A stretch of 15,759 nt of DNA. Origin: a bacterium (GTDB taxonomy: Bacteria > SM23-31 > JAUVVT01). The stretch covers positions 1 to 15,759 of the forward strand of contig JAUWXV010000062.1 in NCBI GenBank assembly GCA_030616165.1, read 5' to 3'. Position 1 is the stretch's first letter. Every line of letters begins with the position of its first letter. The notes below the pieces were generated by a model. It had not been told where the DNA came from. It made no database searches and saw only the letters and a list, made by a program, of their open reading frames with translations. Both the position numbers and the translations under genes were made by a program. Below, one piece after another: positions 1 through 10,807 of the stretch.

Positions 1-179
1 CAAAAACGTACAATTGCTAGGGATATGTCAATAAATAATAAAGACTAAAAAAAGAAAAATATCTGTTAAATTATTACTATTACAATTTAATTTTAACATA
101 ATCAGATATGATATTTGTTTTTGGCGACATGCAAAACGGCATGCATTTTTTACAAAAACATACAAAAAATGACAAAATT
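1..179. other. Gene-free AT-rich left edge with phased ACAAAA repeats
   Basis: No open reading frame worth calling is present. The end of the stretch holds three copies of ACAAA starting at 152, 162 and 172, exactly 10 bp apart. A short inverted repeat (CATGC / GCATG, about 128-143) lies just before them. The equivalent place in the second composite site holds three 10-bp-phased TGGCA motifs, so this may be a protein-binding arm of the first site. That reading is an inference from position and spacing. Confidence 0.35.
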
Positions 180-210
180 AAAGCCCTACTTTAAGTAAAA
201 GCAGGGCTTT
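180..210. terminator. Hairpin beside tRNA-Lys half (terminator-like)
   Basis: AAAGCCCT (180-187) pairs perfectly with AGGGCTTT (203-210) around a 15-nt loop. T-rich sequence follows on the plus strand and A-rich sequence on the other side, so it could act as an intrinsic terminator in either direction. It lies just beyond the 3' end of the minus-strand tRNA half. A hairpin of different sequence occupies the same place at the second site (4294-4328), so the position is conserved while the sequence is not. Confidence 0.6.
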
Positions 211-241
211 TTAATATATTGTTTTTATTATAATTTTACTT

Positions 242-317
242 GTGGGCCCACGAGGACTCGTCCTCCGTAGGCGGATCTGCCTTCGGCGGAAACCTCGGAC
301 CTACTGATTAAGAGTCA
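242..317 (-). pseudogene. tRNA-Lys(CTT) 3'-half remnant, part of a putative att site
   Basis: Read on the minus strand, this gives an anticodon loop CTCTTAA (308-314 on plus), the 3' anticodon-stem strand TCAG, a variable region, a T-arm CGAGG-TTCGAGT-CCTCG interrupted by a 30-bp insertion, and the acceptor 3' strand TGGGCCC with a discriminator A. The loop and stem resemble bacterial tRNA-Lys with anticodon CUU. No D-arm or 5' acceptor strand lies upstream: after three matching bases of the 5' anticodon stem, the sequence becomes the repeat shared with the second site. It is therefore a half gene of the kind left by site-specific integration into a tRNA anticodon loop, and it is not an intact tRNA. 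The Lys identity depends only on the anticodon region. Confidence 0.65.
261..290. repeat. 30-bp palindromic insertion in the tRNA-Lys T-loop
   Basis: Removing exactly 261-290 restores a normal T-arm (CGAGG, TTCGAGT, CCTCG on the minus strand), so these 30 bp are an insertion. They form an imperfect inverted repeat: TCCGCCGAAGGC against GCCTACGGAGGA, 10 of 12 positions complementary, with a 6-nt centre. Short GC-rich palindromes of this style occur as dispersed REP-like elements in many genomes. Only this copy is in the window. Confidence 0.6.
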
Positions 318-580
318 TATGCCCTATTTTATAATTAACTTTGTAACTTATTAAAAAACAACTTAACTGCGTGTGGCTGCTGTATTTAAACCGCTTTATT
401 AAATTCTCAAAATCCTTACCATTTAACACCAAAAGTGGCAAGAATTGGCAAGGTTGAGATTATGTAAACTAAAATAATTTTTATATTAGTAATGTATTTT
501 TTAACTCTTCTGAAATTAAAATAAAATCTATACCTTAATTTTTATTGAAAAGTGTCCAAAATGTTCTGAAGACGTACATT
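318..580. repeat. Composite site A tail (direct repeat of 4401-4627)
   Basis: Starting at the CATATG next to the tRNA half, several blocks recur in the same order and orientation as at 4401-4627: AACTTTGTAACT (337-348), a 19-bp block around TGCGTGTGGCTGC (364-382, one mismatch), a 37-bp identical block (418-454) containing two TGGCA motifs 10 bp apart, and a 58-bp block (523-580) matching 50 of 58 positions. Spacer lengths differ. There is no coding sequence. The organisation suggests the end of an integrating element with recombinase-binding sites; that function is inferred. Confidence 0.7.
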
Positions 581-595
581 TAGTGACTCGACGGA

Positions 596-619
596 CAATG
601 GTGAGACGTCACACCATTG
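596..619 (-). terminator. Hairpin just downstream of the DUF1080 gene
   Basis: CAATGGTG (596-603) and CACCATTG (612-619) pair perfectly around an 8-nt loop, only 5 nt beyond the stop codon of the DUF1080 gene on the minus strand. There is no U-tract after it on that strand, so it may be an RNA-stabilising or Rho-assisted 3' structure and not a classical intrinsic terminator. It lies at the edge between the GC-rich gene and the AT-rich repeat tail. Confidence 0.35.
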
Positions 620-624
620 CCAAA

Positions 625-1557
625 TCAGCGCTTCGGTACGGAAATGCTGATGTTGCGGAATTTCAGGACGCCGGCGTGGTCACCCTGGATGTAGAAAGAC
701 CCCGGCTCGCCTTCGTTGGCATCCAACGCGCCGCCGGTAATGCCCTCGATCTCCTGCTGATCAATTGTGGTGACGCCGTTGCGGACCACGGTCAGTGTGC
801 GACCCACCAGCGTAATATCGAACGTCTCCCACACGCCGGGCGTGCGCGGAAGCTCAACATTAGGCGCGATCCGGCCGTATATCGACCCAATCCGGCGCTC
901 CACCGGAGTTGCACCGAGAGATCCATATTCGAGCTGGATTTCATAACGACCCCGCAGGTAGAAGCCGCTATTGCCTTTGTCGGGGCAGTTGACCTCGAAG
1001 TGCAGCTTGAAGTCGTCGAACTTGCCGGTCGACTTCAGGTTCGCACCGCGATCTTCATTGACCAGCACCCCATCTTTCACAACCCAGTGGCTGTTGGCTG
1101 AATTGCCGATCGGCTCCCAGCCATCGAGATTCTTGCCGTTGAAGAGGGGCTCTGGATTCGTCCAGACGTTCGGAACGCTACGCTTCAGTTCTGGCGCGCG
1201 CACGCCTGTCAACGCGATGGTGTTTTCGCCGCGCCTCTGAACGCCGATGAGCTTGTCACCGACGGCGTCGAGTTCCCACGTCGTGGCCGGACGCCTGCTG
1301 GAGGCCTGAGATATGCTAATGGTCAGATGCGACCCATCCACCTTGAAATCCTTCATCTGTAAGACATGGCCCCCAGTGGGCTGGTACCATATCTCCAGAC
1401 TGCCGTCTTTTTCCGTCACGCCCAGCCAACTGGCGCGCGTGCTGGTCGGCGTCGTGATGTTGAAATCCCACCGTCCCACCAAAGGGTTGCTCTTTTTCTG
1501 TGAACAAGCCGGCGTCAGGAGTGCACTGACAAGAATTAGGGTTAAACCTAGCTTCAT
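625..1557 (-). CDS. DUF1080 (3-keto-disaccharide hydrolase-like) lipoprotein
   Basis: A 310-residue protein with a lipoprotein signal peptide (residues 1-17; lipobox LTPAC, lipidated Cys18). Residues about 24-130 form a beta-rich N-terminal region. From about 132 to the end is a DUF1080 domain with typical features: LFNGKNLDGWEPIG near its start, a GNSGFYLRGRYEIQ core and a C-terminal KFRNISI strand. Known members adopt a concanavalin-like fold, and some hydrolyse 3-keto-glycosides made by Gfo/Idh/MocA dehydrogenases, which suits the neighbouring oxidoreductase. The start at 1557 has GGAGG five bases upstream and gives a clean signal peptide. An in-frame ATG at 1611 also has a strong GGAGGT and would add 18 residues. 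The gene is much richer in G+C than its flanks, indicating acquisition. The domain call is firm; the substrate is unknown. Confidence 0.85.
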   Translation of the reverse strand: MKLGLTLILVSALLTPACSQKKSNPLVGRWDFNITTPTSTRASWLGVTEKDGSLEIWYQPTGGHVLQMKDFKVDGSHLTISISQASSRRPATTWELDAVGDKLIGVQRRGENTIALTGVRAPELKRSVPNVWTNPEPLFNGKNLDGWEPIGNSANSHWVVKDGVLVNEDRGANLKSTGKFDDFKLHFEVNCPDKGNSGFYLRGRYEIQLEYGSLGATPVERRIGSIYGRIAPNVELPRTPGVWETFDITLVGRTLTVVRNGVTTIDQQEIEGITGGALDANEGEPGSFYIQGDHAGVLKFRNISISVPKR

Positions 1558-1611
1558 GCATTCCTCCAAGAAGAAATGACGTTTCGAAATGACATATTTT
1601 CGGAATATCAT

Positions 1612-2386
1612 AATTTACCTCCTTTTTTTTAGTTTTTTTTCAATCAACTTTCAGTTTTCAAAGTCTAAATTAAAATGTAGTTTGTTTTTAAAATTTGTCA
1701 AATTTAAAAAAGAAAAACCAGGACTCACTAAATAGCAAATCCTATATTAGAGTTCCTTCAAGTGTATGAATGAAGAAAGTTCGATTTGGCTTATTGGGGA
1801 TCACACCTCAACAAGCGAGTAAAATGTATGATTTTCTAACCATATTATCAAGAAATAAGTATTGTGACGCAGAATTTACGAATAACCGGAAGCTATAACT
1901 CAAGCTAATCGTGCCATAATTAAACATACACATTTACCTTTGTCAATAATTAGTATTGTGTCCCCGAAATAAGATTTATTACATTAAATATAATATTTTA
2001 TGATAAAATTTGTAACAACCAAAAATCGTACTGGTTTAATTTATTATTGAAAAATAACTACCAAATTTTCCTTTATATGAGAACGGAGCTTATAATTAAA
2101 TAAATTTAAATATATTATAATATAATGATAATTAATATGTTTAGCAAGTTAAAAAATATTGATTAAATATTAGACAATGTCAATATATTCTGTTGAAATT
2201 TAAATATTATCTAAAATTAAGTAAAATGAAAAAATTTTCATACTTGTTGAAATTAAAAATTAATTTTCCCTTCTCATTATCTTTGTGGGTTAATAGGGAC
2301 ATCCCAGCCCTGCTGGCAAATACATAATTAAAGGGTCTGACCCTCATTTGACTCCTAACTGTACCTTAGGCATTCCAAACGAAACC
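1612..2386. other. Gene-free AT-rich spacer with two GC-rich palindromes
   Basis: No coding sequence is supported across about 775 bp between the two GC-rich genes. The part nearest 1612 holds the ribosome-binding and promoter-like sequences of the DUF1080 gene. The part near the oxidoreductase stop holds two small inverted repeats: CCAGC-CCT-GCTGG (2304-2316) and AGGGTC-T-GACCCT (2332-2344). The latter could help end transcription of the oxidoreductase or be a leftover repeat of the donor DNA. A perfect AT palindrome, TATATTATAATATA, at 2111-2124 is not remarkable in this composition. Confidence 0.5.
1674..1701 (-). promoter_or_regulatory. Possible promoter of the DUF1080 gene
   Basis: On the minus strand a perfect -35 hexamer TTGACA (1696-1701 on plus) is followed after 16 nt by TACATT (4 of 6 matches to TATAAT). 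It sits within the palindrome-like ATTTGACAAATT, which recurs before the Gfo/Idh/MocA gene. The region is very AT-rich, so chance matches are easy and the -10 is weak. Confidence 0.35.
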
Positions 2387-3757
2387 TCAGTATTCCAGTT
2401 TGATAATGCCCGGCTGCGGGACGGGATATTTACCATTAAGCCCGGCCTGCAGGGGTGCAGGAGAATCCATCGTCAGATTGTCGATATCGGGAGCGAACTC
2501 ATGCTCGCAGTTGAGGATTTCATCGTAGGTAACGATCTGACCGGTGTGCGCGGCCATCCTGCCCATCGACGTGACCAGACTGGCTTCGGCGCCGCGTTTC
2601 GCCTCGTTGAATGGCTTGTCCATGCGGATTGCTTCTATAAGGTGGTCCCATTCGAGCTGGTAAGGGTCCGGCTCGGGCTGAGGGAACGCCCAGACGATGT
2701 CTTCTTTTTTGTCCATATCCTGTCCCCTGTAGATGCGGCACTTTGCCGGCGAGTGGGACCCATCGGAGATGACCGCGGACCCCTTGTTGCCGTGGGCGTA
2801 GCTGGCGAACTCGCTATGGCAACCGTTGATACACCTGCCATAAAGAAACAGTTTCGTGCCGTCGGCGAAGGTGTATTCGACCGAGTAATTATCAAAGTTC
2901 TGGTCCACCGAGTTGCCACGATAATGGCGACCTCCGATAGACTGGGCTTTGACCGGCCAGGCACCCTTCATCCAGCAGCATTCGTCTATGTGATGTATGT
3001 AAAAGTCGCTGAAGCAGCCACCACTTGCCCAGAGGAAGCTGTGAAACCGTTGGATCTGATAGTGCAGTTCGCTGATACCTTCCGGTTTGGGGTCGGAGGC
3101 AAAATAGCCAATGGGCCCATGCATCCGATATGCCCGCATGGTGATGATGTCACCGACCTGGCCGTCTTTAATCCGATCGTAGAGCTGCCAGCGGGCTGTG
3201 CAGTGACGGCACATCAGCCCCACGCCCACCTTAAGGTTCTTCTTTACAGAATCTTCGGCAAGTTTCAGGAACTTGCGGGTGCTCGGGCCGTCCACTGTAA
3301 CTGGTTTTTCCATAAAGACGTTGATGCCCTTCTCGATGGCGTAGACAAAATGCACCCAGCGAAATGCCGGAGGCGTCGCAAAGATCACTACATCACCCAG
3401 GCTAAGACAGTCCATCGCCTTCTTATAAGAGTCAAAGCCAATGAATTTGCGCTCCTCAGGTACGTCCACCTGTTCAGTGTGCATCTTCTTCAAAACCGTG
3501 TAACTGCGGGCAAGACGGTTCTCGAATACGTCAGCCATGGCGACAAGCTTGATCGGCCCGTTCTTGACAGACAGGGCGTTTGACGCTACGCCGGCGCCCC
3601 GGCCACCGCAGCCAACCAAAGCCACCTTAATAGTATTGTTCTCCGCTGCGTAGTTGCGCGGAACGAGTCCCGTCGCCAGAGCCGAGGTCACGGCACTTCG
3701 ACCAGTGTTCTTCAAAAACTCGCGACGTGATGTCCGTTTTTGTTTCGATTCTTTCAT
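2387..3757 (-). CDS. Tat-exported Gfo/Idh/MocA family oxidoreductase
   Basis: A 456-residue NAD(P)-dependent oxidoreductase. It begins with a twin-arginine signal (SRREFL at residues 10-15, then a hydrophobic stretch to about 38), so it is probably exported folded with its cofactor. The Rossmann domain starts at about residue 43 with KVALVGCGGRG (GxGxxG at 49-54), and the family's EKP motif is at 150-152, where the lysine is normally catalytic. The remainder is the substrate-binding and oligomerisation domain. Members with Tat signals are common in polysaccharide-degrading bacteria, and some oxidise sugars at C3, producing the substrates of DUF1080 hydrolases like its neighbour. The start at 3757 is chosen because AAAGGAG lies just upstream and it places the RR motif correctly; an upstream ATG at 3799 lacks comparable support. 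Composition is GC-rich compared with the flanks. The exact substrate cannot be told. Confidence 0.88.
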   Translation of the reverse strand: MKESKQKRTSRREFLKNTGRSAVTSALATGLVPRNYAAENNTIKVALVGCGGRGAGVASNALSVKNGPIKLVAMADVFENRLARSYTVLKKMHTEQVDVPEERKFIGFDSYKKAMDCLSLGDVVIFATPPAFRWVHFVYAIEKGINVFMEKPVTVDGPSTRKFLKLAEDSVKKNLKVGVGLMCRHCTARWQLYDRIKDGQVGDIITMRAYRMHGPIGYFASDPKPEGISELHYQIQRFHSFLWASGGCFSDFYIHHIDECCWMKGAWPVKAQSIGGRHYRGNSVDQNFDNYSVEYTFADGTKLFLYGRCINGCHSEFASYAHGNKGSAVISDGSHSPAKCRIYRGQDMDKKEDIVWAFPQPEPDPYQLEWDHLIEAIRMDKPFNEAKRGAEASLVTSMGRMAAHTGQIVTYDEILNCEHEFAPDIDNLTMDSPAPLQAGLNGKYPVPQPGIIKLEY

Positions 3758-3829
3758 GACTAAATCTCCTTTCATTTTCAAACTTTTTTTCTTACCCACT
3801 ATTTAATTGTTAAAAATCTTTCCACTTTC

Positions 3830-3858
3830 ACTTTAACAAGGTTATACTAATTTGTCAA
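3830..3858 (-). promoter_or_regulatory. Likely promoter of the Gfo/Idh/MocA gene
   Basis: On the minus strand TTGACA (3853-3858 on plus) is separated by 17 nt from TAAAGT (3830-3835, 4 of 6 matches to the -10 consensus). It is about 75 bp before the chosen start codon and immediately downstream of the perfect hairpin at 3860-3884. The -35 lies in the same ATTTGACAAATT context as that of the DUF1080 gene. Confidence 0.5.
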
Positions 3859-3859
3859 A

Positions 3860-3884
3860 TTGTCAGAGGACAGTCCTCTGACAA
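3860..3884. repeat. Perfect 11-bp inverted repeat (hairpin)
   Basis: TTGTCAGAGGA (3860-3870) and TCCTCTGACAA (3874-3884) form an uninterrupted 11-bp stem with a 3-nt loop. It directly abuts the -35 of the oxidoreductase promoter. It could be an operator, a terminator insulating the promoter, or a REP-like dispersed element. Only one copy is visible. Confidence 0.55.
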
Positions 3885-4253
3885 ACCAAAAAGAAAAATT
3901 GGCCGGCTATCTTATTCGAGCGAATAAGGGGATGTTTTTATTAACAAAAATTAAAGTTGACCTTATTTTCCCGAAAGACGAATTATTTAAGAATTTTAGC
4001 ATTCATAAACTTCAATTTCCGACGATATTCACAATCTTCATTTCAGGCTCATATGTTGATTAGTTTATGTCTTCAGAACATTTTAGACATTTTATATAAG
4101 AAATTAAGAGATACATTTTGTATTATCAAGTGTTTTTTTTCGAAATTTTAAATTTTTATTTACTGTAATGTTTTATTTGTAATTCTTTCTCTCAATCATA
4201 TTATATTTTTTACAAATAAGTTAATTTTGAAGTCACGCCAGGAGACACCCAAA
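3885..4253. other. Gene-free AT-rich spacer with an 8-bp inverted repeat
   Basis: No credible gene is present. A 67-codon frame beginning with TTG inside the hairpin has no ribosome-binding site and no recognisable features. CTTATTCG (3911-3918) and CGAATAAG (3921-3928) form an inverted repeat with a 2-nt centre. Otherwise the stretch is AT-rich filler up to the second composite site. Confidence 0.45.
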
Positions 4254-4280
4254 TTTGGCATTTTATGGCAAAATGTGGCA
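4254..4280. promoter_or_regulatory. Three helically phased TGGCA motifs (possible recombinase arm sites)
   Basis: TGGCA occurs at 4256-4260, 4266-4270 and 4276-4280, exactly 10 bp apart and so on one face of the helix. The same pentamer recurs on the other side of the tRNA half: as TGCCA at 4502-4506 and 4511-4515, and as TGGCA at 4533-4537 and 4543-4547. Phased short repeats flanking a tRNA-derived core are typical of arm-type binding sites of tyrosine recombinases. The function is inferred. Confidence 0.45.
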
Positions 4281-4293
4281 GAAAATGTTAAAA

Positions 4294-4328
4294 AAATAGC
4301 CCAATAGTCTAAAACCATTGAGCTATTT
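4294..4328. terminator. Hairpin beside tRNA-Val half (terminator-like)
   Basis: AAATAGCCCAAT (4294-4305) pairs with ATTGAGCTATTT (4317-4328) with one mismatch and an 11-nt loop. It is flanked by an A-run on the left and T-rich sequence on the right, so it could terminate in either direction. It lies at the same relative position as the 180-210 hairpin, beyond the 3' end of the tRNA half. Confidence 0.55.
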
Positions 4329-4358
4329 AATTGCTTGTTTTTATTGATATTTTAAGCG

Positions 4359-4400
4359 TGGGCGATACTGGACTCGAACCAGTGACCTCCTGCTTGTAAG
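4359..4400 (-). pseudogene. tRNA-Val(TAC) 3'-half remnant, part of a putative att site
   Basis: On the minus strand the sequence reads anticodon loop CTTACAA (anticodon TAC), 3' anticodon stem GCAGG, variable loop AGGTC, T-arm ACTGG-TTCGAGT-CCAGT, acceptor 3' strand ATCGCCC and discriminator A. This is a well-formed 3' half matching bacterial tRNA-Val. Directly 5' of the loop, where CCTGC is expected, is CATATGT followed by the repeat tail. No D-arm or acceptor 5' strand is present. The break falls at the 5' edge of the anticodon loop, the same place as in the Lys half, within three bases. Confidence 0.75.
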
Positions 4401-4627
4401 ACATATGTCCCTTCTTTTTAAACAACTTTGTAACTCCTTAATAATCAATATAACTGCGTATGGCTGCTGAACTTACATCTCTTTCTTTATACTGCGACCA
4501 TTGCCACCAATGCCACCATTTAACACCAAAAGTGGCAAGAATTGGCAAGGTGGAAAAACTTGACAAAGTAAAATCTATACATTAATTTTCAATGTAAAAT
4601 GTCCAAAATGTTTTGAATACATACATT
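4401..4627. repeat. Composite site B tail (direct repeat of 318-580)
   Basis: It shares ordered blocks with the first site: CATATG at the tRNA junction, AACTTTGTAACT (4424-4435), a 19-bp block (4451-4469, one mismatch), a 37-bp identical block (4515-4551) and a terminal 58-bp block (4570-4627, 50 of 58 identical). Similarity stops at about 4627. Two inverted TGCCA motifs precede the 37-bp block here and are absent from the first copy. Confidence 0.7.
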
Positions 4628-4681: not shown

Positions 4682-4775
4682 CCCCTTACTGAAGTAAGGG
4701 GTTAATGAAATGTTTAGCTGAAGTAAGGGATTAATGAAATATTTAGCAGAAGCAAGGGGTTAATGAAATGTTTAT
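4682..4775. repeat. Three tandem 29-bp repeats with a leading hairpin
   Basis: Three head-to-tail units at 4689-4717, 4718-4746 and 4747-4775 share the pattern CTGAAGTAAGGGGTTAATGA followed by AATGTTTA, with a few substitutions. The first unit together with the preceding bases forms a perfect hairpin, CCCCTTAC / GTAAGGGG (4682-4689 / 4694-4701). There are no spacers, so this is not CRISPR. Every unit carries stop codons, so it is non-coding. It may be a minisatellite or a regulatory array in the leader of the dynamin genes. Confidence 0.75.
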
Positions 4776-5315: not shown

Positions 5316-7271
5316 ATGTCAGGTGTTAAAGATTTAACACTTTCTTTAAAGGAATTCAGTGAGAAATATTATGATGCGGTCTATAAATGGTATCTTGAGA
5401 TGGAAAAACAACATCTATCAAGAGAAAACTACTTCAAGATACTTGAATGGAATATGAATGGACCTTTAAAGATAGTCTTCGTAGGAGAGTTCAATCACGG
5501 GAGGTCCTCACTTATAAACTCGATTTTAAAAATGCCCGATTTACTTCCTGTATCGTCAAAGCGACAAACAAAAGTCTGCACCTATATGTTCCCTCACTAT
5601 CACATTCAGGTCAGTGGATTCGGTCATTCAACTGAACACGCACTTTTGATAGACAAAGAAAAAAATCATATGGAGGTTTTTGATTTCAGCAATCTTTCCG
5701 TGTTATTGAAAGACCAGAAACTTTCTTCTGACAGATATGTTTTTTACATATATTTAAATCATCCATTACTGAATGAACATATTACCCTTGTCGATACTCC
5801 GGGATTTGATTCATCAGAAGAAGGGGTTCAATTTTACCCTATTAATCTTGCCAAGCAGAGCGATATTATAGTAATGGTGAGTGACTTAAATAAATCCTTT
5901 TCAAAACAGCATGAAGAATTTATCAAGCGTTTAGGCATACACACTAATAAACTTACACTTGTAATTAATAAAGCTGACCTTTATACAAGTAAGCAAGATA
6001 TTGTGGATACACTTACTCACGTCGCATCATACCAAGAGAGATTAGAGATTGATTTTCCGAAATTTTTATATTCCTCAATTCCCTCCGAACAACCCGAAGA
6101 AAAGCCATCAAAAGATGCCGAAGAAGAGGTGAAGATGTGGGAAAATTCTCAATTTGAAGATCATCTTAAAACTCTGATTGAAAACAGAAATACTACCAGA
6201 GCAAAAAACTGGACGTTGAACATCCTGGAAACTATTTATAATATATTGGGGCGTAAAAATGGTAATGTTAGAACCCTTTTGGATGACATGGATGCTATCG
6301 TGAAAAATATTAATGAAGAAGAGACAAATCTCAAATCACTATTGGAACATATTGAAAAAGAGAGAGTAACTGAAGATACACAAGTTAATAGAACAATAAT
6401 GATTCTCGAAGATGAAGCCAAAAAAATAATTTATAAAGAATCTGAAGATGCTTATAGATTTTTCAGCGAAAAATATTTAGGATGGCGTAAGAGGAAAGCC
6501 ACTATAAATTTTCAAAAATCCGTTACGAAAAAATTTCAGGAACATATTCTAAAAGCTATAGACACATTCAACGAATATTTTAATAAAGAGATTAAGAATT
6601 TCTGCCATCACTGGTTCAATATAATGACAAAAATACTCGATACACGATTTTTTGACAGAAATCTCCGGACAAGCGAAGTAGAAGAAACGAGGCAGATATT
6701 ATACTTATATCTATTTGAAAATCATTTTTTCTGGAACCATCAAAAATACCAGGATCTTATCGAAAAACTCAGAGTACGAAGATATGAAGAGATTATAAAA
6801 AATCCAGATTTATTATATGGTGTTCTTTCATGGGCAGATTTATTCTTTTTTGACATAAATAGTGAAAAATTTGTATTAAATAAAATAATCAAAGGCTGCC
6901 CAATTCCACATATATCAGATGAAACACGAAGCTTAATCTCACGGAATGTCTGGGAAATTCAAAAGGCACCGGGATTATTTAGTTTTGGCAATTATAAAAA
7001 ATTCCGTGAAAGAGTCCATGATACTCTGGATTTATATCACCGTGAAATATTTCAAAAACTCGAAAATGTAATAATTAATGAAATTCATCAATTCAAAATA
7101 AGTTCGAAAGCGGCACTCCAGGAGACAGAATCACAAATAAGAAGTGCGTTTCTCTCAAAGATAAAACAAAAAATGGAAGAATATTTTCAAGAGCAACTCA
7201 GAGATATTGGGAAACGACTTCAGGCTGCCATAGGTGATACTCCTATGCCGTTCGAGCAAACCAAAGAATAG
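5316..7271 (+). CDS. Dynamin-like GTPase, first of a pair
   Basis: A 651-residue bacterial dynamin-like protein. The GTPase domain shows a P-loop GEFNHGRSS (57-65) in which the usual lysine of GxxxxGKS is arginine (Arg63), a switch-I threonine in the region around 85-89, DTPG at 160-163 and NKAD at 218-221. Residues from about 290 are long charged helices, as in dynamin stalks. A moderately hydrophobic patch (about 505-515, GVLSWADLFFF) could be a membrane-contact tip; there is no clear transmembrane segment. The start at 5316 is preferred over 5289 because GGGGAGG lies 8 bp before it. The stop is 5 bp before the next dynamin-like gene, so the two are cotranscribed and probably form a hetero-oligomer. 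Family roles include GTP-driven membrane remodelling, sometimes in stress or phage defence; the specific role here is unknown. Confidence 0.85.
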   Translation: MSGVKDLTLSLKEFSEKYYDAVYKWYLEMEKQHLSRENYFKILEWNMNGPLKIVFVGEFNHGRSSLINSILKMPDLLPVSSKRQTKVCTYMFPHYHIQVSGFGHSTEHALLIDKEKNHMEVFDFSNLSVLLKDQKLSSDRYVFYIYLNHPLLNEHITLVDTPGFDSSEEGVQFYPINLAKQSDIIVMVSDLNKSFSKQHEEFIKRLGIHTNKLTLVINKADLYTSKQDIVDTLTHVASYQERLEIDFPKFLYSSIPSEQPEEKPSKDAEEEVKMWENSQFEDHLKTLIENRNTTRAKNWTLNILETIYNILGRKNGNVRTLLDDMDAIVKNINEEETNLKSLLEHIEKERVTEDTQVNRTIMILEDEAKKIIYKESEDAYRFFSEKYLGWRKRKATINFQKSVTKKFQEHILKAIDTFNEYFNKEIKNFCHHWFNIMTKILDTRFFDRNLRTSEVEETRQILYLYLFENHFFWNHQKYQDLIEKLRVRRYEEIIKNPDLLYGVLSWADLFFFDINSEKFVLNKIIKGCPIPHISDETRSLISRNVWEIQKAPGLFSFGNYKKFRERVHDTLDLYHREIFQKLENVIINEIHQFKISSKAALQETESQIRSAFLSKIKQKMEEYFQEQLRDIGKRLQAAIGDTPMPFEQTKE

Positions 7272-7276
7272 AATTT

Positions 7277-9457
7277 ATGAGCGAATTAATTCAACTCTCA
7301 AGTATAAAAAAGTCCGTTCTTGAAATTATTGATGACTTTCTGTCTTTCTCTCCACCGGAAACTATGGAAGACCACATTCAACGACTCAAAGATAACATTC
7401 TTAATAATTATTTTCAGATAGCGGTCGTTGCTACATGGAACACAGGAAAATCCACATTCTTAAATGCTCTTCAAGGAGACCCGATTTTCCCTACTCAAAA
7501 CAAAGAGACGACACACATTATCACCAGTCTTATATACTCAAAGGCGAGATATACTACATTAAAGTTCAGCGGGCGAGACCAGCTTGCTGTAAAATTGGCT
7601 AAAAATATCCTCGATAAACTCAATAAGGATTATAGTGAAAAATCGGAGAATCAAATATTCATTCCCTGTAAAAATTACAAAGAACAAAAACAAATTCTTG
7701 AAATCTTCTCTACGGATGACGGCTTTCTTCCAAAGTATCCGGAACTATATTCAGAAATATTTTTCGAAGAACTCCATGAAGAATTTCCCGATATGCCGAG
7801 CACTGCGGAAGAATATAAAAATGTAAAAAATAATCCTGACGTATCTGCACAAACAGAGATTATTAATAAATGGAGTCACATTACAAATATATTCAGATTT
7901 CAATGCTTGAGAAAGATTCAGAATCATCTATTAGAAATTATTCTTGGTATTCCGACGAGATTATGCGAACAAGGGATTCAACTAATCGATACTCCTGGCG
8001 TAGTAAGTCTCGATGAACTCAGAGATAAAATGGTTACAGATTATATTCAGTTTGCCCAGTGCGTAATTTTTATATTCCGATTTGACCAACCTGGAAATGC
8101 CGAGGATATAACATTCCAGAACTTCATCAAAAAAATGGGTATAAAGGACGTATTTTTGGTTCTCAATCGTGTTGATACTCAAAAAGACCCCCGTGATGTC
8201 TGGGACGCCATATCTCAGGTGGAAAAAGGACTGCAAAATATTATTAGCGGAGAAGTACATATTTATCCACTATCCTCGCTTGGAACACTTATTGCAAAAT
8301 TAAGAACAACAAAGGATGAAGAACTTATAAAGACAGAGGGAGAATTTACAGAATTCTTGAAAAGAAATGACCAGGTGAAACTTAATTCTTATATAAATGA
8401 TTTTGCCAAATTCTATAGAGACCTCGATAATTATCTCCTGCGGGTTGATAAATTTGACAGACTTATGAGGTCACCACTTCTATTCCTGAAACAAAAGGTA
8501 AAGGAACTTAAACAAATCTGGATTGATAAAAGAAAAGAACAAGAAAAAGATTTCTTCTATAAAAGATATAGTACTTATATTAATGACCTTGATAAAATTA
8601 ATAAAGAATTAACAGAACAAAAAGAAAAAATAGATGAAGTTTTTGAAGAAAAATTAGAAAAATATGAAAATGGGGAACTATATAAATTAATTTCAACCAA
8701 AATAGAGAGCCTCAGCAATCTATCTATGGAAGATTGGCAGGTAATGAATAAAAGTGGATTCCAGCTCACGTTCAAACATCTCTCAGCAAAACTCCAAAAA
8801 GATAATATTGAAGGAATCAATAAAGATTTATTCAAAAATAAAAAATATAATGAAAAATTAGATAACCTTAAAACCAAACTTAAGCCTTACTATAAGAAAT
8901 ACAATGATGAAACCACTCAATTAGTAAATATATTACTTAAAGCCATCCAGGACGAAGCAAAAAAACTTTATCAACAATGGCACACCCAAACAAAAAAATA
9001 CTTTGACCAGAAGTTTGCAATTTCCCTTCCACCTGCAGAAAGTGAACTATTGGAAATAGGCGAAATATCAAAGGTAAAAATCACATTTCCTAAAAAATCA
9101 ATTTCCAGCAAAATGAAATCCAAAGTATCTTCAATTTTTACCTTGAATAAAACCAAGAGATTACAACTGCTGAAAAATCAAGCATTGGAAATTATGGAGC
9201 ACATTTTCAAACAGACCCTATCCTATTTCGACAACAATATTAATAAAAATATTGGAAAACTCAGAAACACCTTTATAAACCAGATAGAAAAAGAATGTTC
9301 GGATGCTATTACCATATTTAAAGAGAATTTCAAGGAAGACGAAGAAGTAGGCAAAAAAGTTTCAAGCAAAATTGATAGTATTGACTCCAATATCAAAAAT
9401 ATAGAAAATTTACTTGACAAGATAAAACTTGTCGAAGAAAAACTCCCTCCTTTATAA
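7277..9457 (+). CDS. Dynamin-like GTPase, second of a pair
   Basis: A 726-residue partner of the preceding gene. The P-loop is ATWNTGKST (52-60): lysine and serine are kept, but the first glycine is alanine. A switch-I TTHIIT follows at 78-83, with DTPG at 238-241 and NRVD at 297-300. Between switch I and DTPG about 150 residues separate motifs, against about 70 in the first protein, pointing to an insertion of mostly charged helices. The C-terminal half is rich in lysine and glutamate, with predicted coiled coil at about 410-470 and again near the end. There is no signal peptide or clear membrane span. No strong ribosome-binding site precedes ATG 7277, so translation is probably coupled to the upstream gene. 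Paired bacterial dynamins usually act together on membranes; this is inference for these two. Confidence 0.85.
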   Translation: MSELIQLSSIKKSVLEIIDDFLSFSPPETMEDHIQRLKDNILNNYFQIAVVATWNTGKSTFLNALQGDPIFPTQNKETTHIITSLIYSKARYTTLKFSGRDQLAVKLAKNILDKLNKDYSEKSENQIFIPCKNYKEQKQILEIFSTDDGFLPKYPELYSEIFFEELHEEFPDMPSTAEEYKNVKNNPDVSAQTEIINKWSHITNIFRFQCLRKIQNHLLEIILGIPTRLCEQGIQLIDTPGVVSLDELRDKMVTDYIQFAQCVIFIFRFDQPGNAEDITFQNFIKKMGIKDVFLVLNRVDTQKDPRDVWDAISQVEKGLQNIISGEVHIYPLSSLGTLIAKLRTTKDEELIKTEGEFTEFLKRNDQVKLNSYINDFAKFYRDLDNYLLRVDKFDRLMRSPLLFLKQKVKELKQIWIDKRKEQEKDFFYKRYSTYINDLDKINKELTEQKEKIDEVFEEKLEKYENGELYKLISTKIESLSNLSMEDWQVMNKSGFQLTFKHLSAKLQKDNIEGINKDLFKNKKYNEKLDNLKTKLKPYYKKYNDETTQLVNILLKAIQDEAKKLYQQWHTQTKKYFDQKFAISLPPAESELLEIGEISKVKITFPKKSISSKMKSKVSSIFTLNKTKRLQLLKNQALEIMEHIFKQTLSYFDNNINKNIGKLRNTFINQIEKECSDAITIFKENFKEDEEVGKKVSSKIDSIDSNIKNIENLLDKIKLVEEKLPPL

Positions 9458-9532: not shown

Positions 9533-10807
9533 ATGAAAAATTATAATCTTAACAGAATATTCTGTCATCCGAGCAAGTGGCTTATGTTGATTATACTTTT
9601 GACCTTTTCAATTAATGTCCATGCTCAAGATGCAGGAGAAGAACTTCTTCCGTGGCAGGAAGGTTATTTTGATATACACCACATAAACACAGAATGCGGA
9701 GATGCTACATTTATGATTATGCCTGACGGGACAACGATGTTAATCGACGCTGGAGATAAAGGAAGGGGTACGATTTCTAAGGAAGGTGTAAAGCCAAATG
9801 CGTCTCGCAGTGCTGGTGAATGGATTGTCAGATATATTGGTCATTATCTCTCCTTGAAGGAGAAGCCTGTTCTTGATTATGTAATGTCTACTCATTTTCA
9901 CGGAGACCATATGGGGAGCATTACCGAATCCGCTAAAACCAAGAATGTTCATGGGTATTACCTAACCGGAATAACAGAAGTTGCAGAATATATTCCTGTT
10001 CGTAAAATAATTGACAGAAACTTTCCTGATTACAATTATCCCCGTCCGCTGCAAAGTGGGAATATGAAAAACTACAGGCAATTTCTTGCATATTCGATGC
10101 AGAATAAAGGATTGAAGGTTGAAAAAGCCCAACCGGGTTCTAATAAACAGATTATCCTTACTCACGAACCTGAAAAATATCCGAGTTTTGACGTAAGGAT
10201 AATCTCGGCTAATGGAGAAGTGTGGACAGGCATCGAAGAAACAACCCGACAGTATTTACCAATTGGGGATGAAATTGACCCTGATGACCCTCCAGAGGAA
10301 AATCCATGCAGTATCGTATCAAGATTCAGTTATGGGAAATTTGATTATTATACAGGCGGGGATATACAGGGTATCCCAAACCCCGGGAGGGGAGATTTTC
10401 ACGATATTGAAACTCCCGTTGCCAGAGTGGTTGGACCCGTGGAGGTGTGTAAAGGTAATCATCATGGTTTTCCACTAAATATGAATTCATATTTTATCAA
10501 AGCACTGAGAGCGCGTATTTATGTTTTCTTTACATACGACCAAATGCACTGCAGTGAAGCTGTATTGAGCAGAATATTCTCGCCACGATTATACAGCGGA
10601 CCTAGGGAAGTATTTGCTACTGGAATTCATGAAGCAACAAAAGCTATGTTGACAATTATGCGATGGTATGATAGGATAACAGGAACAAGCGGTCATATCG
10701 TAGTTCGTGTCAATCCGGGAGGCGATTCGTACTGGGTGTTTACAATAGATGATTCGGCAGAAACATATAAAATAACCGGTAAGTTTGGTCCATATCAGTC
10801 GAATTAA
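9533..10807 (+). CDS. Exported ComEC-like metallo-beta-lactamase-fold hydrolase
   Basis: A 424-residue protein with a Sec signal peptide (hydrophobic core about 16-28, likely cleavage after VHA at 29-31). The metallo-beta-lactamase fold resembles the soluble C-terminal domain of ComEC/Rec2: GDATFMIMPDGTTMLIDAGD (56-75), the metal motif HFHGDH (121-126), a TGGD strand-turn (274-277) and GNHHG (308-312). Metal ligands are therefore present, and a hydrolytic enzyme acting outside the cytoplasm is likely. Relatives include nucleases and phosphodiesterases; the substrate cannot be told. Its start has GGAG 7 bp upstream. It lies 75 bp after the dynamin-like pair on the same strand, so it may belong to that operon, but separate transcription is possible. 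Confidence 0.8.
   Translation: MKNYNLNRIFCHPSKWLMLIILLTFSINVHAQDAGEELLPWQEGYFDIHHINTECGDATFMIMPDGTTMLIDAGDKGRGTISKEGVKPNASRSAGEWIVRYIGHYLSLKEKPVLDYVMSTHFHGDHMGSITESAKTKNVHGYYLTGITEVAEYIPVRKIIDRNFPDYNYPRPLQSGNMKNYRQFLAYSMQNKGLKVEKAQPGSNKQIILTHEPEKYPSFDVRIISANGEVWTGIEETTRQYLPIGDEIDPDDPPEENPCSIVSRFSYGKFDYYTGGDIQGIPNPGRGDFHDIETPVARVVGPVEVCKGNHHGFPLNMNSYFIKALRARIYVFFTYDQMHCSEAVLSRIFSPRLYSGPREVFATGIHEATKAMLTIMRWYDRITGTSGHIVVRVNPGGDSYWVFTIDDSAETYKITGKFGPYQSN

Follow-up and report, generated by a model that had tools for sequence, protein, structure and literature searches.

The window examined here, the whole stretch of 15,759 nucleotides that makes up contig JAUWXV010000062.1 of a bacterial assembly (GCA_030616165.1, lineage SM23-31), carries two composite sites in which the 3' part of a transfer RNA (tRNA) gene is fused to a conserved tail, and these sites are very probably attachment-site junctions, either attR or attP-like hybrids, of a single family of integrative elements. 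Site A, or unit A (~4261-4627), and site B, or unit B (~125-580), stand in direct orientation, at the positions and with the shared order of parts that a sequence-only reading of the same DNA had assigned to them: read along the minus strand, each passes from an outer box through two TTGCCA iterons and a tail of ~150 bp to the tRNA 3' part, a terminator and further flank. By position in the window, their parts are:

125 to 241, minus strand: site B, P'-like flank 3' of the tRNA part, with a terminator hairpin (180-210) and TGCATG repeats
242 to 317, minus strand: site B, tRNA 3' part with a tRNA-Met body (nt 30-75) and a Lys-like anticodon loop, CTCTTAA, by local alignment against 36 distinct intact tRNA sequences
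261 to 290, minus strand: GC-rich palindromic insert of 30 nt that interrupts the site B T-loop; L028 has an identical one, and L012 and L019 carry variants at this point of the T-loop
320 to 454, minus strand: site B, P arm, made of TTGCCAATTCTTGCCAC iterons and tail (tail profile 111.6 bits, E 1.7e-32)
517 to 578, plus strand: site B, outer box, an imperfect palindrome TGTCCAAAATGTTCTGAAGACGTACA with an AT-rich, promoter-like lead (box profile 53.8 bits; 31 copies in own and sister genomes)
4066 to 4137, minus strand: outer box again, as an inverted, partial copy where site A faces the cargo (box profile 50.0 bits)
4261 to 4339, minus strand: site A, P'-like flank with terminator hairpin (4294-4326) and TGCCA iterons (9-copy family, 65.5 bits)
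4358 to 4403, minus strand: site A, tRNA-Val-TAC 3' part, nt 31-76 (alignment score 77 against the intact tRNA-Val-TAC in L020)
4405 to 4552, minus strand: site A, P arm, made of TTGCCA iterons and tail (tail profile 144.2 bits, E 1.6e-42)
4557 to 4625, plus strand: site A, outer box (box profile 53.1 bits)

The two sites share a 37-bp block that is identical at 418-454 and 4515-4551 (98% over 40 nt), a second common block at 518-580 and 4565-4627 (86% over 63 nt) and a further stretch at 322-400 and 4409-4487 (77% over 79 nt). Chance is excluded as the source of this likeness by the E values of the two tails, together with 15 other places in the genome and a sister genus that match the tail profile. 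The window is contig C4 of a metagenome-assembled genome (MAG) of 3.74 Mb in 343 contigs, 90% complete, from which 562 kb of contigs with 364 open reading frames (ORFs), chosen for carrying junctions, were analysed. A search of the whole genome placed unit A at 35 positions and unit B at 48, many of them partial (box, arm or tRNA part alone, or intact tRNA genes). The stricter tail profile gave 17 places, 14 in this genome with both window copies included and three in the sister-genus contigs examined, and none in 75 kb of contigs picked irrespective of matches. At 10 of the 14 the tail runs on into a tRNA part, and counting tRNA parts with other tails or none brings the junctions in this genome to ~16. 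The closest tails are 86-89% identical to unit A, and the sister-genus genome (MAG CSMAG_1171) carries further copies; the recurrence that the sequence-only reading had staked its case on is thus found both within the genome and beyond it. Scattered over many contigs, these junctions are attR-like or attP-like and do not form one proven array. In one pair, L010 and L020, 167 bp agree at 93% (a tRNA-Val 3' part and ~120 bp) before diverging abruptly, the break delimiting a flank that moves together with the tRNA part.

Which tRNA a tail adjoins varies widely, and where the tRNA homology starts varies little. This genome has 39 tRNA genes that score above the family cut-off; aligned with the 36 distinct tRNA sequences recovered, the parts joined to tails belong to Val-TAC, Met, Met-2 (a reversed 5' half), Ala-CGC, Arg-CCT and Lys-CTT, and in the sister genus to Ala-GGC, so that at least seven tRNA species are involved. 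In nine of the best cases homology sets in at nt 29-31, within the anticodon stem's 5' strand, and mostly it extends to the 3' end (~nt 75), the pattern that integration at the anticodon loop leaves behind. Both window sites conform to this pattern, each holding a displaced part that reaches from the anticodon arm to the tRNA 3' end, and because these parts are incomplete ARAGORN calls no tRNA in the window. The anticodon loop is a well-known position for tRNA integrases. This sublocation is attributed to Williams 2002 as cited in PMC9897764, and tRNA fragments are a general product of integration (PMC9897764). As a junction motif, CATATG, which the earlier reading had picked out, is not fixed: most copies lack it, and it is a decayed 5' strand of the anticodon stem (compare, for example, GAGCATCTG in L011).

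The enzyme that would fit such sites is present in the genome. Four integrase ORFs of one family adjoin intact tRNA genes (Met-2, Arg-CCT, Ala-GGC and Pro-CGG), and three of the four are full-length tyrosine recombinases of ~370 amino acids (aa) with their catalytic residues. Upstream of three of the four lies a gene that, from its sequence, we take to be excisionase (xis)-like, and farther upstream at the Arg-CCT locus there is an ORF that presumably encodes an ERCC4-nuclease-like protein. The core of the 37-bp block, TTGCCAATTCTTGCCA, stands at or just past the 3' end of the three full-length integrase genes (Met-2, Arg-CCT and Ala-GGC), near the tRNA, and in two of the three it encodes the C-terminal residues ...ARIGKV. 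Family integrases with matching iterons at tRNA genes support the tyrosine-recombinase origin proposed by the sequence-only reading; the window contig itself supplies no recombinase. The clearest single case is L026, which holds an element with both of its ends: an intact tRNA-Met (8227-8301) followed by the flank seen at site B, ~4 kb of cargo, a 52-aa integrase remnant and a displaced tRNA-Met 3' part (52 nt aligned), so that the same core, Met, occurs at both ends. Window positions 125-260 match the 3' end and downstream region of this intact gene (L026:8227) at 88% over 136 bp, and the flank family of site A (4261-4339) likewise adjoins an intact tRNA-Val of the sister genus, in L057. In L067 (4077-4420), beside a truncated family integrase, tRNA-Pro-CGG has ahead of it a duplicate of the 5' half that stops within the anticodon loop.

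The best evidence for a link between tail and integrase comes from a distant lineage, by comparison of sequences. Relatives of the integrase were sought in one genome per species across 84,980 species, and the only close ones are in a Gemmatimonadales-labelled MAG (52 and 41% identity), a Glassbacteria MAG (41%) and CSMAG_1171 (88%); an intact tRNA adjoins every one of them. The family integrases of the Gemmatimonadales-labelled MAG, complete or as remnants, lie at Pro-GGG, Arg-ACG, Pro-TGG and Gln-CTG, which extends to Pro, Arg and Gln genes elsewhere the placement of a tyrosine recombinase beside its target tRNA. The iterons of this MAG read GTGTCAG both beside the integrase and in a tail copy, within a composite site that comprises GTGTCAGTTTGTGTCAGCA, a tail like those of the window (49.8 bits, E 3.8e-14; aligned directly it scores 140, where shuffles average 27.9 with a standard deviation of 5.0) and a tRNA-Val 3' part. 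A 20-nt exact match to the MAG's own tRNA-Pro/integrase flank, iterons included, is what led to this site, so the agreement in iterons cannot count as independent; the sequence beside the 20-nt match can, and it proves to be a copy of the window tail followed by a tRNA-Val 3' part. A homologous tail bearing the iterons of its own integrase locus means that tail and integrase belong together in two lineages with different iterons, a co-variation seen in one case, the single such site found in this MAG. Viral sequences yielded integrases with at most 35% identity to the family, and the TTGCCA block had no exact match among viral contigs.

These observations suggest a mechanism in which the ~370-aa recombinase, with the excisionase-like gene just upstream, would bind the paired iterons that flank the site and exchange strands within a tRNA gene's anticodon arm. 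With the element would come a replacement 3' part, keeping the tRNA gene whole, and the 3' part that it displaces would remain joined to the P arm of the element. Repeated rounds of integration, loss of integrases and rearrangement would then have left junctions scattered across the genome. The P arm is generic, occurring with many different tRNA cores, and core swapping and mobilisation in trans may have played a part. Between two such junctions the foreign sugar-enzyme pair of the window would have arrived, probably as an integrase-less relic or a passively carried segment.

A bolder version of the same idea is an integron-like capture system built on tRNA genes, in which one recombinase family would move integrase-less cargo in trans through the generic arm, the tRNA core would be exchanged at near-matching anticodon loops and the target tRNA would switch. 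We consider it unlikely, and were it true the chimeric cores (at site B a Met body with a Lys-type loop, in L023 a Lys body whose loop is GTT) would be its by-products. The anticodon loops of the window are CTTACAA at site A (Val) and CTCTTAA at site B, where a Lys-type element may have integrated into tRNA-Met, a point mutation serving equally well as an explanation. Chimeric tRNA parts occur elsewhere too, as a Lys body with a GTT anticodon loop (L023:2540-2620) and a GTT arm with a Val 3' end (L019:1280-1400).

Several facts weigh against reading the window sites as junctions of one element family. The genome is a fragmented MAG; its window contig carries no integrase, and the intact Val and Met genes lie on other contigs. 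The window pair does not share one core, as the two ends of an element should, since Val stands at one site and Met with a Lys-type loop at the other. Polarity is not uniform, for the two Met-2 cases face the integrase with the tRNA 5' end and not the 3' end; in keeping with this, one tail (L018) is fused to the reversed 5' half of Met-2. Finally, the outer box also stands alone beside core genes, which attachment sites do not explain.

That box, present at 31 places with and without a tail (in the window at 517-578, 4066-4137 and 4557-4625, for example), raises the question of whether a transposase spread the whole unit as a transposon-like repeat or miniature inverted-repeat transposable element, the boxes being terminal inverted repeats and the tRNA piece a passenger. 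Inverted boxes do bracket unit A (4066-4625), and many of the copies lack tail and tRNA alike, but no target-site duplication is visible by eye at 4066/4625 and most boxes are unpaired. Neither the constant anticodon-stem start across many tRNAs nor the iterons that match integrase loci would be predicted by a transposon, and we regard this origin as very improbable indeed. The box itself consists of a TTGATA lead and an imperfect palindrome, TGTCCAAAATGTTTTGAAGACA. In L016 it recurs at 1242-1315, 5333-5405 and 6337-6410, two of these copies bracketing a single gene that resembles a 3-keto-disaccharide hydrolase. As a promoter for cargo the box was rejected: of the 29 boxes with a next gene, ~16 have it in the same direction, which is what chance alone would give.

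Between the two sites of the window lie two genes:

625 to 1611, minus strand: lipoprotein-like ORF with a 3-keto-disaccharide hydrolase domain (PF06439, E 8e-39; GC content 0.568, rank 1 of 364 ORFs)
2387 to 3799, minus strand: Gfo/Idh/MocA oxidoreductase with a Tat-like leader (PF01408, E 5.2e-6; GC content 0.540, rank 2 of 364 ORFs)

As the most GC-rich of all the ORFs in the 562 kb, they are supported by composition as foreign, in agreement with the earlier reading. GC-rich genes in general show no link to the sites (median GC 0.383 in the neighbourhood of sites, 0.369 overall). Several other junctions also have Gfo/Idh/MocA genes nearby, but no enrichment is claimed, since the genome has many members of this family and the contigs had been picked for their junctions.

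The sequence-only reading had gone further and seen sites A and B as the ends of one excisable cassette. The cores come from different tRNAs, and with differing anticodon loops simple excision between them is not expected; although no recombinase lies between them, they are not the two compatible attachment sites of a cis-mobilizable element (CIME). Family membership is therefore claimed for the sites and not for the segment between them. A true cassette array, in which segment 600-4290 would be one unit, excised by recombination of A with B and reinserted by an integrase acting in trans, accordingly seems quite improbable: the direct orientation, the P-arm and P'-like sequences at both sites and the foreign cargo speak for it, but Val CTTACAA differs from Met/Lys CTCTTAA and the contig holds no second Val or Met site that would bracket the segment. 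Of the array proposed earlier, with units ending in tRNA-half attachment sites, the attachment-type sites and the recurring module stand, and the array itself is not demonstrated.

An array of this general kind was found only in another genome, G011, which lies outside the class of the window and belongs to a phylum with only four genomes in the collection; the array lends the cassette view some support. Contigs C283 (L051) and C200 (L052) of this genome hold tandem tRNA-Val 3' parts with a conserved upstream arm, spaced ~1.2 to 6.7 kb apart; on C283 the 47-bp tRNA-Val part is identical in four copies and 94% alike in a fifth. Between these parts lie genes for a sensor kinase, a patatin and a Fic protein, with no recombinase gene seen among them, so that by sequence both marks of a CIME, attachment sites from the same tRNA and integrase-free cargo, are present. 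No match to the tail profile occurs in G011, which makes its array an analogue and not a proven relative. G011 has three tyrosine recombinases; no tRNA adjoins any of them in the flanks examined, and the one that was scanned is nearest to XerA and integron types, below their cut-offs.

Whether the junctions of the window's genome still move is a separate matter. Each could be an ordinary relic of a separate old island, immobile today and part of no working cassette system, a view that concerns the present state only and is compatible with attachment-site junctions of one element family. Decayed tRNA parts, T-loop inserts, mixed cores and integrase remnants of 52-128 aa all point that way, but three full-length integrase ORFs with catalytic residues persist together with xis-like genes, and the best tails are still 86-89% alike to unit A; we treat it as a serious possibility while leaning against it.

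Taken as attachment-site junctions of one element family, sites A and B belong to a kind already known, that of integrase-less islands accreting at RNA genes. In Dehalococcoides, islands accrete in tandem at ssrA, some without an integrase (PMC3146451), and these ssrA islands and CIMEs resemble the present junctions in their many direct repeats of an RNA-gene 3' end and in their cargo islands, 15 of which lack an integration module. They differ in having a single target, a CcrB-like integrase (DsiB) and a tandem arrangement 3' of one gene, whereas here the recombinase is a tyrosine recombinase and the junctions are dispersed among many tRNAs. The tRNA/tmRNA-targeting islands of the Islander database share the displaced tRNA 3' part beginning at the anticodon arm, the intact gene elsewhere, the integrase beside the tRNA and the xis-like gene upstream; unlike them, one P-arm tail is found here with at least seven tRNA species, at ~16 junctions in one genome, many without a nearby integrase. 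In Methylophilaceae, tRNA-Lys repeats recur in additive islands and tycheposons (PMC10872708). Tycheposons likewise combine a tyrosine recombinase, tRNA-bounded islands and metabolic cargo, and the recombinase and tRNA boundary, both found here, are not specific to them. In the additive flexible islands of the same work, recurring tRNA-end repeats mark added cargo, much as in the tRNA-Val array of G011, but those repeats are 20 bp of one tRNA (tRNA-Lys), as against tRNA parts of ~45 nt with a conserved arm of 150 bp. Integrons share the integrase-free cargo next to a repeated recombination site; the sites here are derived from tRNA, and the family integrases score only 34.8 and 38.4 bits against the integron-integrase model TIGR02249 (cut-off 265), far from IntI.

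What appears to be new is a shared tail on many tRNA cores whose iterons co-vary with the integrase; we found no description of it in the open-access literature, which cannot exclude one. Integrases usually keep to one tRNA, and how a target changes is an open question. One arm on many tRNAs in one genome, together with a change of iterons with the integrase in another lineage, offers a natural series for the study of arm recognition and target switching. The elements may also be a route by which an uncultured lineage gains sugar-metabolism genes of foreign composition.

Some smaller features accompany the sites. The GC-rich 30-nt palindromic repeat occupies the same T-loop position in different tRNA parts (window 261-290, L012:17012-17052, L019:1321-1361 and L028:13758-13798), and members of its family occur elsewhere in L076, L077 and L079. 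The sole Rfam match in the window, RefA9 on the terminator hairpin, is below threshold and was taken as chance. Directly beyond site A, at 4689-4775, stand three tandem copies of a 29-bp unit, CTGAAGTAAGGGGTTAATGAAATGTTTAG, and farther on two adjacent genes for dynamin-family GTPases (PF00350; 5289-9457) are followed by a gene of the metallo-beta-lactamase fold (9533-10807).

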